Shown: positions 23,344-28,457 of the stretch, one piece after another
Layout: each line of letters begins with the position of its first letter
Position numbering within the stretch: the first letter of the stretch is position 1
Origin: Bacteroidia bacterium
GTDB lineage: Bacteria > Bacteroidota > Bacteroidia > Bacteroidales > GWA2-32-17
Assembly: GCA_016218155.1 (NCBI GenBank)
Contig: JACREQ010000032.1
Coordinates: 1 to 64,000, forward strand
Reading direction: 5' to 3'
DNA: 64,000 nucleotides
Program-made: the position numbers and the translations under genes
The notes under the pieces: model-generated
Told to the model about the DNA's origin: nothing
Databases searched by the model: none
The model's input: the letters and a program-made list of their open reading frames with translations, nothing else

Positions 23344-25398
23344 TTATTTTACTTTTTTTAGTGCTTCGGTTGTGGCTTCTAACATAGGTTGAATAGAAAC
23401 TTCTTTTCCAACGGCTTCTTTCATCCAAACTTGTGGTATGAGTCTGCCTTGTGTGTATATTCTCTGAATTTCACTTGCGAAATTCTTTCCATCAATTTGT
23501 TTCTCAATCTGAAAATCGATAAGATGTCCAACCGGATAAGCTGAAAGGTAAAGAGGAGCATCAATCATATGAGAATAAATTGCAAGTATAGGCTCATCCT
23601 TTGAACCAAATACCGGAGCATAATATTTATTCCATACATCTTTTGCAATAATAATTACTTGTTCTTTTAATTGTGCAGGAGTTGCATCAGGATTAGCATA
23701 TAACCATTTCCAAACCTGCATGTCAACTAAAGAAACCCCCATGATTTCGTAGCAAGCCCAGAAATTATCCAATGCCAACATGTCCTTTTTTAATGGATCT
23801 GAATTCTTTATTCCAATTAATTCAAGATCGCGTTTTTGAAAAATGAAAGCTAACGCCTCTGTAAATGCTGTATTGGGAACACCTTTCATCGTATAATAAT
23901 CCATGTCGTATAAAGAAAGGGTTTGCTCAACTGTATGCCCGAATTCGTGTACGGCAATATTATATCCTTTGTAATCCATTCCGTCTTTGCCAACTCTGGT
24001 ACGTAAATGAGCATTATCTCCGCGCATTTCGCTGCCCCATGCATGACCTGCACCACGTGAAGCATCTACGTTAATTCTGCTTGAAATTTCATTTGCTTTT
24101 TCGGGTGTAAATTCAAGTTTCTGAAGTATTAATGGTAAATCCTGCTGGAATTTTTCTTTTGTTGGGTACTTTGTTTTAACAACGTCTGTAAGTTCTGTCT
24201 CTGAAATTGTACTGCGTGATTTAAATCCGTCATACCAGATGTCAAATGGCTGTAGGTCGCGTCCTAGTCTGCTTTTTATTAAGGCTGCAACTTCTTTTAC
24301 CTGAGGTGAACTGATAAATTCAATAAATAATTTTTCAACTTCTTCCTGAGACATTTCCATTTCTCCATCAAATTTTCTTTGTATATAAGTCGGGTATTGT
24401 GGACTATAAGCATCTATTTTTTTGTTTGCAAGAAAAACATTTAACAAATGTTCATAACGAGTATCAGGTTCCGGTTTGAATTTAATTTCAGCATTGTTTT
24501 GTGTAAGTTTGTTTGATTTAGGGTTCCATTGGTATTTGTCGCTATTAATTACATCAGAAGGAATTTCCTGTGTAATTATTTTTTTCATAACTTCATAAAT
24601 CATTTTTTGTTTTTCGAGCCCAGCATCACCCTGATAATTTGATTTTAGTTCATCTCTTAAACCCCAGTGAGTAATAAGTTTCAGGTCTTTTGGAAATAAT
24701 GTTTTATTGTTATCATCAACAAGATTACCCATAAAAATATTGTATTCGCTTATATAAGTATCAGCAGCAGTAATTGTTTCGCTGATTTTTTGAATTAAGT
24801 CAGCAGGTACTCTGCTCGAAAAAATATCACCTAAACGTGCATATGCCCATTGTAATCTGCTCCATGAAGCTGCTGATTCATTCTTTTCTTTTAATGTATA
24901 TGCTGGGAAATTTAATATTGTAACAAAAGCAATTTTGTTAGCAAAAAAATCGTCGGCTAAATGTGAACTAACACTATAGCTACCAAACATTTCATCAATA
25001 GGTAAAAGCTCGTCGTTACCAAGATGAAGTGGTTCCATTAATCCTATTGTTATTCTGTTAAAGTTTCCATTCAGAATTTCCAGCTGGTGCTGAATTTTAA
25101 TAAAAACTGCTTCACGCATTAAATCAGTTCCAAGATAATTTTCCTTACAGAAATTTTTAAAATCATCGGCAGTTCCATCACTTTCAAACCATAAAGCAGC
25201 TGCCTGACTCACACCTTTATTAATTAATTCTTTTCGGTCTTCACCGTACATTGTTACGAGTGTATCTACTGCTTGTTTAATTGTTGCTTCGGTAATGCTT
25301 GATTTTTTCACTTGTTCTGAATTGTCATCCGAACAGTTCTTACATTGTTGTAATCCAATCATTAATGGAAGAATTAAGTAAATAATTGATTTTTTCAT
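23344..25398 (-). CDS. Putative zinc metallopeptidase lipoprotein (HExxH)
   Basis: 684 residues. The N-terminus looks like a lipoprotein signal (LPLMIGLQQC, Cys near 19). The zinc motif HEFGH lies in NIAVHEFGHTVEQ near residue 460, and a Glu in TEALAFIF about 35 residues on could be the third ligand, the spacing of gluzincins such as the M3 oligopeptidases. The helical N-terminal 400 residues fit an M3-like clam-shell enzyme. It probably degrades peptides in the periplasm or at the outer membrane. Peptidase family assignment is tentative. A strong terminator follows. Confidence 0.75.
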   Translation of the reverse strand: MKKSIIYLILPLMIGLQQCKNCSDDNSEQVKKSSITEATIKQAVDTLVTMYGEDRKELINKGVSQAAALWFESDGTADDFKNFCKENYLGTDLMREAVFIKIQHQLEILNGNFNRITIGLMEPLHLGNDELLPIDEMFGSYSVSSHLADDFFANKIAFVTILNFPAYTLKEKNESAASWSRLQWAYARLGDIFSSRVPADLIQKISETITAADTYISEYNIFMGNLVDDNNKTLFPKDLKLITHWGLRDELKSNYQGDAGLEKQKMIYEVMKKIITQEIPSDVINSDKYQWNPKSNKLTQNNAEIKFKPEPDTRYEHLLNVFLANKKIDAYSPQYPTYIQRKFDGEMEMSQEEVEKLFIEFISSPQVKEVAALIKSRLGRDLQPFDIWYDGFKSRSTISETELTDVVKTKYPTKEKFQQDLPLILQKLEFTPEKANEISSRINVDASRGAGHAWGSEMRGDNAHLRTRVGKDGMDYKGYNIAVHEFGHTVEQTLSLYDMDYYTMKGVPNTAFTEALAFIFQKRDLELIGIKNSDPLKKDMLALDNFWACYEIMGVSLVDMQVWKWLYANPDATPAQLKEQVIIIAKDVWNKYYAPVFGSKDEPILAIYSHMIDAPLYLSAYPVGHLIDFQIEKQIDGKNFASEIQRIYTQGRLIPQVWMKEAVGKEVSIQPMLEATTEALKKVK

Positions 25399-25415: not shown

Positions 25416-26360
25416 TTAGGTTAAAGATTTCTTAACAAAATCACTAACCTGTAATAGTTGGTTTTCGAAAGTAAAAGTTTCTTTAAGGCTATAATTAAAT
25501 TCTTTTAATCCGTTTGAATAATAAAGTTTTATAATTATTTCAGATTTATTAAAAACATTAATGTTTTCGTAGTTTACAAATATTTTTGCCTCAAGTATAT
25601 TGCAAATCTCATTTTGAAAAACGGATTGACGATTTGGAACTGAGAAAACAGAATATCTTCCTTCTATTCTGTTAAAATAATTCTGCATTGCCGAAAACAA
25701 AGAATCATGAAACTCAGAAGGCAGCCATAGTTCAAATTTAAAATTACTTTCAACAGCACTTCCCGAATTTTTAACAAGAAATTTAGGGTAAAAATTAATG
25801 TTAAGAATTTTCCCGTTTTCTAATGTTGGCACTCCCTGAGTATTTACTATCCCAATAAATTCCATGTTAGAAACAGAGGCAACATTATACATTTCTCTTA
25901 CATGTTGTTCTAACATCATTTCTGTTTTATTGCCAACCCTGAAATAATACCTGTTGTCTAATGCCATATGCGGGCGGACATTGCTTTTGGGAATATTAAC
26001 AACTATTACTCCTTTATTGGAATTTTGGGTGTTCTGAATCTCGTAAACTTCAACATTTTCAATTTTAGGATAAATTTCGTTTTCAATTAAATTTTTAAGC
26101 CAGAAATCTGAAACAGTATTAAAATTAATTTCATCAAGTTCATTTGCTCTTTCTTTTAACTTTTTAATTCCAAAGATTATTGTTCCACCGCCTGAGTTTG
26201 CAAAAGCAGAAAAATATTTTGAAAGCCATAGTTCTTTTTTGTCATCTCCGGGAATAAGGTAATTTGCCTGACAAAAATTAATAGCACCTGTCTGCTTTAT
26301 CTTATTTGAAATAAAGAGAGTTATGTCATTAAAATTGTATCTTGGTTTTGTGTTCTGCAT
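25416..26360 (-). CDS. AlbA_2/Schlafen-type ATP-binding or nucleic-acid-binding protein
   Basis: 314 residues. The N-terminal domain (about 15-150) matches the AlbA_2 (divergent AAA) fold, with the signature AFANSGGGTIIFGI near 50-63 and the later RVGNKTEMMLEQ. Members occur as transcription regulators or as parts of defence and stress systems. The C-terminal 150 residues are beta-rich and unassigned. It precedes the metallopeptidase gene by 17 bp on the same strand, so the two may be co-transcribed; a functional link is not obvious. Confidence 0.78.
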   Translation of the reverse strand: MQNTKPRYNFNDITLFISNKIKQTGAINFCQANYLIPGDDKKELWLSKYFSAFANSGGGTIIFGIKKLKERANELDEINFNTVSDFWLKNLIENEIYPKIENVEVYEIQNTQNSNKGVIVVNIPKSNVRPHMALDNRYYFRVGNKTEMMLEQHVREMYNVASVSNMEFIGIVNTQGVPTLENGKILNINFYPKFLVKNSGSAVESNFKFELWLPSEFHDSLFSAMQNYFNRIEGRYSVFSVPNRQSVFQNEICNILEAKIFVNYENINVFNKSEIIIKLYYSNGLKEFNYSLKETFTFENQLLQVSDFVKKSLT

Positions 26361-26501: not shown

Positions 26502-27023
26502 ATGAGAGCAAAAATAATTTTGGGACTCTTTCTTTTAACTCTGCTTTTTGGTGCAGGAAAAGGCAAAGACTTTATTGTAGAAGGGATGAAACCTTTATAT
26601 GTAGATAAAAATACAGCACATTTGATAAGTTTTAATGGTGCTCAGCCATTAAACAAGACCGGTAAAATTTATATTTATGGTGAATATGTGTTTATCAACG
26701 AGCAATATAAAGGAATACATGTAATTGATAATCATGACAAAACAAATCCTCAGAATGTAGCTTTTTTTAGTATTCCTGGTAACATAGACTTAGCGATAAA
26801 AAACGGGTTCATTTATGCGGATAATTACAATGACCTTGTTGTAATTGATATAAATACTCTTGCTACGCCTGTATTGGTTAAGAGATTGCCAAATGTTTAC
26901 TCTAATATTACTCAAATGTATCCTGAAGATACCTATGGCTACTTTGAATGTGTTGATACCAGTCGTGGATATGTTACAGGTTGGATTAAACAAACTCTTG
27001 TTAACCCTAAATGCAGAAGATAA
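26502..27023 (+). CDS. LVIVD-repeat protein, N-terminal half
   Basis: 173 residues: a signal peptide (about 1-20, MRAKIILGLFLLTLLFGAG) followed by two LVIVD-like beta-propeller units (KIYIYGEYVFINEQYKGIHVID and IKNGFIYADNYNDLVVIDI). It ends abruptly at GWIKQTLVNPKCRR. In Bacteroidetes LVIVD lipoproteins as I know them, this segment is the first half of a single chain of about 430 residues. The second half is encoded next door in another frame with its own start and lipoprotein signal. So the gene is either split or a natural two-subunit form. Function of the family is unknown. Confidence 0.75.
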   Translation: MRAKIILGLFLLTLLFGAGKGKDFIVEGMKPLYVDKNTAHLISFNGAQPLNKTGKIYIYGEYVFINEQYKGIHVIDNHDKTNPQNVAFFSIPGNIDLAIKNGFIYADNYNDLVVIDINTLATPVLVKRLPNVYSNITQMYPEDTYGYFECVDTSRGYVTGWIKQTLVNPKCRR

Positions 27024-27024
27024 T

Positions 27025-27768
27025 ATGAGAGCAACAATAATTTTAGCAGCAATTATAATTTCATCAGTTTTTATCTCCTGTTCAAAAGAGGGTACTGATG
27101 CAATTAACAGTAAAGGTAAAGGCGGATCAATGGCTCGTTTTACTGTTTGTGGTGATTATCTGTATTCTGTTGACAATACTTCATTAAAAGTTTTCGATAT
27201 TGCAACACCTACAGCAACTACCCTTGTAAATACCGTGAATATTGGTTTTGGAATAGAAACGATTTTCCCATTTAATAATTATTTGTTTATCGGTTCTCAA
27301 GATGGAATGTATATTTATGATATAACAAATCCTTCTGTACCTAGTTATATTGCAAAGTCGGAACATATTTTATCCTGCGATCCGGTGGTTGCAAATGATA
27401 GTCTGGCCTTTGTTACATTAAGAAGCGGTTCTCTCTGTAGAAATACAAATGTTAACAGATTAGATATACTGGATATTAAAAATATTTCTGATCCTGTTCT
27501 GATTAGAAGTCATTTTATGACAAGTCCCTTTGGACTGGGATTAGACAGTACTTATCTGTTTGTTTGTAATGGTACAAACGGACTTGATTTGTACGATGTT
27601 AGAAATCCTTATAACATATTGCCGATGAGTCATATTGATGGAATTACAACATATGATATTATTTTGTATAATAAAACGATGTTTGTTATTGGTGAAACAG
27701 GATTTTATCAATACGATTATTCGGATATAAACAATATTACTCTGTTATCGCAAATATTAAAAGAGTAA
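27025..27768 (+). CDS. LVIVD-repeat lipoprotein, C-terminal half
   Basis: 247 residues from ATG 27025, 1 bp after the previous stop; the frame extends back to 26860, but that part only shadows the upstream gene. The N-terminus (MRATIILAAIIISSVFISC) is a lipoprotein signal with Cys near 19. It is followed by GGSMARFTVCGDYLYSVD and four to five propeller-type repeats (IETIFPFNNYLFIGSQDGMYIYDI, GLGLDSTYLFVCNGTNGLDLYDV). The first residues copy those of the upstream gene at DNA level (ATGAGAGCAA-AATAATTTT), suggesting that the export signal was duplicated. Confidence 0.78.
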   Translation: MRATIILAAIIISSVFISCSKEGTDAINSKGKGGSMARFTVCGDYLYSVDNTSLKVFDIATPTATTLVNTVNIGFGIETIFPFNNYLFIGSQDGMYIYDITNPSVPSYIAKSEHILSCDPVVANDSLAFVTLRSGSLCRNTNVNRLDILDIKNISDPVLIRSHFMTSPFGLGLDSTYLFVCNGTNGLDLYDVRNPYNILPMSHIDGITTYDIILYNKTMFVIGETGFYQYDYSDINNITLLSQILKE

Positions 27769-27791: not shown

Positions 27792-28457
27792 ATGAGATTT
27801 TTTAAAATATTATTGTTATTTGTTATATTGTTTAGCTCAAACATCATTTATGCTAATTTTATTCATAATCAAGATTCAATATGGCCTAACAGAAAAATTA
27901 TTTTAAGGCTTAATTTTGTTAATATAATGGATCCTTATATTCCGGCAATTCAAGTTGGAGCAGAGTATTCCATCAGAAAACGGCTTTCTTTATATCATGA
28001 GTTGGGTTATATTAATTCTGGATTGTCGCCCGATGGTTCTTTTGATAAAGAAATAAAAGGATTTAAGTTTATTAATACTTTAAAATTTTATCCTTTTGAA
28101 TTTAGTAAATATGCCAAGCATTTTGTTGGACTCGAATTAGGAATAAATAAATATAATGCAAAAAGTGAGATTTGGGTTGATATGGGCCCATATAGCATGG
28201 CTAAACCCAAAACAACAAATGTGAGTTCTTATTATGCTAATTTGTTAACCGGATTTAATATTCATATAAAACCCTGGTATCGCCTGTGTATTGATTATTA
28301 TGTTGGTATTGGCATAAGATATAGAAATGTTAAATCAGATATTGATGAAGAACAGGAATTTCGAGGATCTTTTTATGATCCTCTAAGATCACAAAATGAA
28401 TGGATGCCAGGTTTTACATATGGCTTTAGGATAGGATATCTGCTTAAAAAGAATTAG
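27792..28457 (+). CDS. Predicted small outer-membrane barrel protein
   Basis: 221 residues with a signal peptide (about 1-21, SSNIIYA). Alternating hydrophobic strands with Tyr/Gly turns (VGAEYSIRKRLSLYHELGY, FVGLELGINKYNA, YYVGIGIRYRNV) and a final barrel-like strand (GFTYGFRIGYLLKKN) suggest an eight-stranded barrel. It follows the LVIVD pair by 23 bp and may be co-transcribed. No specific function. Confidence 0.72.
   Translation: MRFFKILLLFVILFSSNIIYANFIHNQDSIWPNRKIILRLNFVNIMDPYIPAIQVGAEYSIRKRLSLYHELGYINSGLSPDGSFDKEIKGFKFINTLKFYPFEFSKYAKHFVGLELGINKYNAKSEIWVDMGPYSMAKPKTTNVSSYYANLLTGFNIHIKPWYRLCIDYYVGIGIRYRNVKSDIDEEQEFRGSFYDPLRSQNEWMPGFTYGFRIGYLLKKN

Follow-up and report, generated by a model that had tools for sequence, protein, structure and literature searches.

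Adjacent genes for two parts of an LVIVD-repeat protein recur in Bacteroidota and may encode a two-chain propeller

Introduction

Propellers can be completed in trans, as in Sec13 with Nup145C or Sec31 (single-blade insertion) and in the trimeric bacterial lectins, whose subunits are identical. BamB, an outer-membrane lipoprotein propeller, consists of one chain with eight blades. The nearest comparison for the locus described here is with the single-chain LVIVD lipoproteins of Bacteroidota and their neighbors (Pfam family PF08309), which have the same blades and the motifs GKIY, GGSMARF, and CDPVV on one chain. LVIVD has been named as a 42-residue repeat (PMC2447325).

Here, we analyzed a window of 64,000 nucleotides from a member of the Bacteroidales (GenBank assembly GCA_016218155.1, contig JACREQ010000032.1, positions 1 to 64,000), in which such a protein is encoded by two adjacent genes. 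In the split form, the linker of the single-chain proteins gives way to a stop, a start, and another export signal. The split was not described in the titles and abstract openings of the literature that we searched on LVIVD, propellers, and gene fission, a search that lay mostly outside the subscription literature. Judged from the loci compared here, the split is not an error and is not confined to this genome, but recurs in many Bacteroidota, often beside a barrel gene. As in Sec13 and the trimeric lectins, the ring that we propose would be closed by more than one chain; unlike in those systems, one ancestral chain apparently became a 2 + 5 pair of independently exported parts. A propeller closes via its first and last blades, and a 2 + 5 division on two exported chains would therefore be unusual.

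Results

The N-half gene (26502 to 27023, + strand) encodes 173 amino acids, comprising an export signal, blades 1 and 2, and a Cys-bracketed C-terminal tail, and the C-half gene (27025 to 27768, + strand) encodes a lipoprotein of 247 amino acids with blades 3 to 7. Both were delimited from the open reading frames (ORFs), PF08309, and the split homologues. As the earlier note had it, a single base pair separates the two ORFs, and their frames differ. Both products exceed the curated PF08309 cutoff of 20.2 bits (N half, 31.2 bits; C half, 36.7 bits), and both align to the first and second parts, respectively, of single open frames elsewhere, mostly of 390 to 470 residues. These matches and alignments, a check that the note had proposed, confirm its view that the adjacent genes are complementary parts of one LVIVD protein. 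In our grouping, single-chain proteins have all blades in one frame, and the window form, with two ORFs, falls outside that group. Searches of the window's own genome returned one match per half (E ≤ 0.001) and one match to the LVIVD family, and therefore no single-chain spare was found.

The mechanically called C-half ORF opens at a TTG at 26860. We chose the ATG at 27025 as the start because a complete lipoprotein signal begins there (27025 to 27081, + strand); it ends at the lipobox Cys19, and the C half is a lipoprotein by this N-terminal signal with its lipobox Cys. Lipoproteins were called with a lipobox pattern of our own and no trained predictor. The second gene thus has its own start and a full lipoprotein signal, as had been claimed. 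At the start of the N half lies a hydrophobic export signal without a lipobox Cys (approximately 26502 to 26561, + strand; from the sequence and a simple hydrophobicity scan). The idea that the halves are exported separately is therefore upheld insofar as each has an export signal, with the lipobox restricted to the second product.

Two genes on the other strand precede the pair. Directly upstream is a divergent Schlafen AlbA_2 gene (25416 to 26360, − strand; PF04326, 63.8 bits). Beyond it, a 684-amino-acid protein (23344 to 25398, − strand) with a lipoprotein-like start, an HEFGH motif, and no Pfam match over the cutoff is possibly an unassigned metallopeptidase lipoprotein.

The fold was approached through a single-chain homologue, L144, which was modeled with its sequence unchanged (80 rows; pLDDT, 87.6; pTM, 0.85). 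By our count, the model is a closed propeller in which a disordered linker separates the first two blades from the remaining five. Model confidence is under 50 for residues 151 to 182, and this low-confidence linker maps onto the window junction plus the second signal peptide. When the L144 strands were transferred through alignment A4, with blades assigned by us, blades 1 and 2 fell at 26667 to 26888 and blades 3 to 7 at 27139 to 27759 (both + strand). With blades 1 and 2 in one product and 3 to 7 in the other, neither window chain has a complete ring. From the single-chain homologue's model, we infer that the window pair would form a two-chain seven-bladed propeller.

Foldseek placed BamB first by E value for the L144 model (about 3e−8; TM score, 0.5 to 0.6), a likeness confined to the fold of this model, with 8 to 10% identity; no BamB model appeared among the NCBIfam matches (E up to 1) of the N half, the C half, or the homologue L095. 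VIA-align, used as a second look at Foldseek's own matches, aligned the L144 model to chains of CIA1, beta-TrCP, and Cdc20 with Z scores of 25.4 to 25.8 and root mean square deviations of 2.4 to 2.6 Å over 262 to 266 residues. The match covers L144 residues 27 to 393, and thus both halves. These chains, which form seven-bladed propellers, resemble the model in WD40-type ring geometry at about 10% identity; neither half matched a WD40 model in Pfam (E up to 1). Among solved structures, sequence matches (E up to 1) to the C half were seven chains of Cake, a designed propeller, and a plexin; the N half matched one uncharacterized protein. Nothing passed an NCBIfam cutoff for the four proteins scanned. 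The choice-of-anchor B family (TIGR04312; cutoff, 100 bits) matched the C half weakly at 14.6 bits, which fails for membership, and L095 at 24.0 bits; the N half was not among its matches.

To the window's own locus, 120 fetched regions were added, giving 121 loci; after L092 and L094 were dropped, 119 homologous loci were classified, all with an N half and a C half present. At 61 of them the protein is split at the same point, with N and C in different ORFs, and 58 are single-chain. These proportions come from a nonrandom sample, because split candidates were picked by frame length. The C half was found in 115 of 393 genomes of the same order (E ≤ 1e−20) and in 57 of 395 genomes of a phylum sample (E ≤ 1e−10), with the window's own genome counted in both. 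By our count, the same-order search gave 124 matches, namely, 46 split (spanning 33 family codes), 76 single-chain, and 2 fragments (in G092 and G056, not among the fetched regions). The split matches comprise 45 fetched loci and the window. The single-chain matches comprise 34 that were fetched and classified (L092 is cut by a contig end) and 42 called by open-frame length alone. In one of the 46, L094, the C half itself occupies two overlapping frames, owing either to a frameshift in this 73% complete genome or to a further break.

A named set (the best 80 of at least 536 loci) contained 24 split, 55 single-chain, and 1 cut locus, and its split members include the isolates Pontibacter ummariensis, Pontibacter sp. 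FD36, P. aquaedesilientis, and Larkinella soli. Both forms occur together in ten genomes with fetched and classified loci (G080, G127, G176, G268, G336, G586, G763, G622, G686, and G608). Closer to the window, neither half was found in any of four same-genus genomes searched (one 74% complete), and the five genomes searched elsewhere in the family include one with a split pair (G006), which belongs to the other subclade. The same split that the earlier note suggested seeking in related genomes is thus present at 61 of the 119 classified loci, isolates included. We found no sign of close relatives with two independent, noncomplementary LVIVD genes, the arrangement that the note had named as counterevidence.

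The split loci share a compact layout. N and C lie on one strand in all 61, and the assigned distance between them ranges from −19 to 165 bp (median, 11 bp; 10 overlaps). The C gene is in the same frame as N in 15 of the 61, and therefore the frame difference seen in the window is not a constant feature. Of the 60 N halves whose start is complete, 59 open with a hydrophobic stretch and 34 show the lipobox pattern; for the C halves, the counts are 61/61 and 56/61, respectively. These calls come from simple rules of ours that also pick the start codons, with no trained predictor. The five C halves outside the pattern still have a Cys near the end of the hydrophobic stretch. At the split position, single-chain proteins have a variable linker of 27 to 98 amino acids, and no relic of an internal signal was seen by eye in 58 such linkers. 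Three single-chain proteins with short linkers (L155, L157, and L162; 27 to 32 amino acids) have no recognized barrel neighbor.

The window N chain ends in a Cys150-Cys171 bracket (FEC ... NPKC; 26949 to 27014, + strand). Within the stretch examined, this tail is present in 24/24 loci of the window's subclade A, in 0/37 other split loci (B), and in 0/58 single-chain loci, by a pattern (C, 9 to 13 residues, W, 7 to 13 residues, C) that was written after the A tails had been seen. Subclade A was taken from a 119-row quick tree as 20 rows of one branch plus the adjoining L128, L132, L139, and L141. On the strength of these sequences, a disulfide probably secures the C terminus of the N chain in subclade A.

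A third gene (27792 to 28457, + strand) follows 23 bp past the C half and encodes a 221-amino-acid predicted eight-stranded barrel of the outer-membrane type. It matches PF12099 (DUF3575) at 27.7 bits against a cutoff of 21.1, and its model (17 rows) has eight strands (pLDDT, 86.5; pTM, 0.76). The best fold match was an outer-membrane protein of Thermus thermophilus (E = 5e−4), followed by weak matches to OmpW, OmpA, and NspA (E = 0.003 to 0.004); L051, a homologue of this barrel, had no Pfam match at E up to 0.1. Barrel neighbors were recognized at 45/58 single-chain and 41/61 split loci, the latter a lower bound because the barrel of L084 was missed in that count but found in another survey. 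Among the 20 split loci with no recognized barrel, at least L061, L063, L083, and L089 stop at contig ends.

At split loci, all recognized barrel genes are found 3' of the C gene and share its strand. At single-chain loci, 21 barrels are downstream, 12 are upstream and divergent, and 11 precede the LVIVD gene on its own strand. The A and B barrels are homologous to each other (hhalign probability, 98.2; E = 2.9e−14), and the single-chain type scored 69.2 against B and 14.7 against A. L156, a single-chain locus, has a type-B barrel downstream; the other 44 of the 45 single-chain barrels are of another type. In the subclade B operons of L065, L066, L068, L070, L075, L078, L080, and L085, the first barrel gene is followed by another in tandem.

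The earlier note had observed that the C-gene start copies the N-gene start, and this is correct: the 20-bp ATGAGAGCAANAATAATTTT (26502 to 26521 and 27025 to 27044, both + strand) has exact matches only at these two starts in the 4.78-Mb genome, with 7 more places at two mismatches. Start comparisons took in 45 of the 61 split loci. Over the first 21 bases, N and C genes of these 45 pairs share 11.0 bases within pairs versus 10.4 between pairs (permutation P = 0.009; base composition uncontrolled), and over 30 and 60 bases, 0 of 5,000 permutations reached the within-pair similarity, again with base composition uncontrolled. The window is an outlier, with 19 of 21 bases shared, above all 1,980 between-pair comparisons; over 60 bases, L058 (37 shared) exceeds it (34 shared). 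We rejected the copy as a trace of fission, as relatives with the same split have no such copy; it is local to this genome and therefore no record of the fission. On this comparison of gene starts, the copy is either due to chance or postdates the fission, having arisen in this genome, for example, through a short conversion tract.

A careful tree was built from 49 hand-picked rows, with L176, L180, L137, and L190 left out, and rooted on one Kapaibacterium row. In it, all of the split rows group with L155 and L156 in a single clade nested among single chains (support, 96/92; 96% of 200 bootstrap trees). This clade was named after a quick tree of 53 hand-picked rows including outgroups had been seen, in which the same clade has a support of 92. 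The outgroup-bearing trees combine named loci with rows from Kapaibacteria, Ignavibacteria, and Balneolota, which in the careful tree are all single-chain and outside the split clade; samplings with fewer outgroups failed to unite all split rows. L155 is single-chain yet falls inside the split clade, with an ambiguous placement. L156 (2959 to 4125), a single chain inside the split clade with its type-B barrel, is probably a natural re-fusion.

Discussion

We consider it probable that an old fission in the linker gave two chains that are produced from one operon, exported separately, and assembled into one seven-bladed propeller. A single-chain LVIVD lipoprotein propeller would have been split long ago in the disordered linker between blades 2 and 3, with the C-terminal part acquiring its own lipoprotein signal and the two genes kept adjacent ever since. 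One operon, presumably cotranscribed, would yield the two-blade N chain and the lipid-anchored five-blade C chain; after separate export, the chains would assemble outside the inner membrane into one ring. The propeller, anchored by the C chain, would probably sit at the outer membrane beside the barrel encoded by the third gene and work with it.

If a 2 + 5 propeller has been kept across the phylum, it would amount to a natural system of protein complementation, and an unusual one, outside the cytoplasm, and the split pair ties an uncharacterized lipoprotein to an outer-membrane barrel. Split and single-chain forms coexist, even in one genome, and at least one re-fusion is likely; thus, the cost or use of the fission is directly testable. 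A more speculative extension, to which we give little weight, is that the propeller can open: the two- and five-blade chains would close round, or let go of, a ligand or the neighboring barrel at the outer membrane, with closure as the regulated step. If so, the continued separation of the genes would be explained, as would the presence of an N-chain lipobox in some lineages only and the addition of a Cys-bracketed end in subclade A.

That the halves lie in different frames 1 bp apart is what a frameshift, an assembly error, or a decaying gene might leave, but the second ORF opens with a complete lipoprotein signal, the window N half has a Cys tail and stop of the type seen at the other subclade A loci, and split pairs are present at 61 loci, as well as in Pontibacter and Larkinella isolates. 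On this recurrence and the common tail and stop, we rejected frameshift or sequencing error, in agreement with the earlier note's argument against a simple frameshift, and the whole class of error and decay has a negligible probability. It is unlikely, though far less so, that the C chain closes as a smaller propeller of its own, leaving the N chain with a different role. Propellers of five and six blades are known, and N halves are less alike than C halves in split loci (mean distance, 0.643 versus 0.600). However, the N part is also the less conserved in single chains (0.569 versus 0.548), the N half aligns to two blades only, its invariant residues are common to split and single-chain forms (26 rows), and the two genes stay within 165 bp of each other in all 61 split loci. 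N and C distances also correlate in split pairs nearly as they do in single chains (r = 0.631 versus 0.72; 58 loci each, shared phylogeny not removed), which fits contact between the chains without demonstrating it.

A propeller divided between two chains could also have arisen more than once or have been divided from the outset. The rooted tree favors a single old fission from a single chain. Independent splits at the same linker in lineages A and B appear somewhat unlikely to us: a 119-row quick tree has two state changes, with A (including the window) and B separated by single-chain rows; a 38-row set that includes L156 speaks against all split rows as one side (p-AU = 0.017); and only 12% of the bootstrap trees from a 36-row set show one side. 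Yet in that 36-row set, from which L156 and L139 were removed, the one-clade tree is not worse (p-AU = 0.524), the outgroup-bearing trees unite the split rows with L155 and L156, and the A and B barrels are homologous, with every recognized one at a split locus 3' of the C gene. An ancestral split, with the single chain a later fusion, is very unlikely. L156 does resemble such a fusion, and L188, from a metagenome-assembled genome titled Chlorobiota, is split, but L188 lies deep inside subclade A and the single-chain outgroup rows fall outside the split clade, the root being one Kapaibacterium row. Of the earlier note's proposal of a true fission with duplication of the export signal, the fission is thus favored, and the shared start as its trace is unsupported.

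Two loci have taxonomic labels at odds with their positions in the tree. The split pair of L188 is close to that of L055, from the window's order, pointing to transfer or misbinning. L176, recorded as Desulfobulbaceae, is almost identical in the tree to L177 of the Ignavibacteriae and is probably a misbinned contig.
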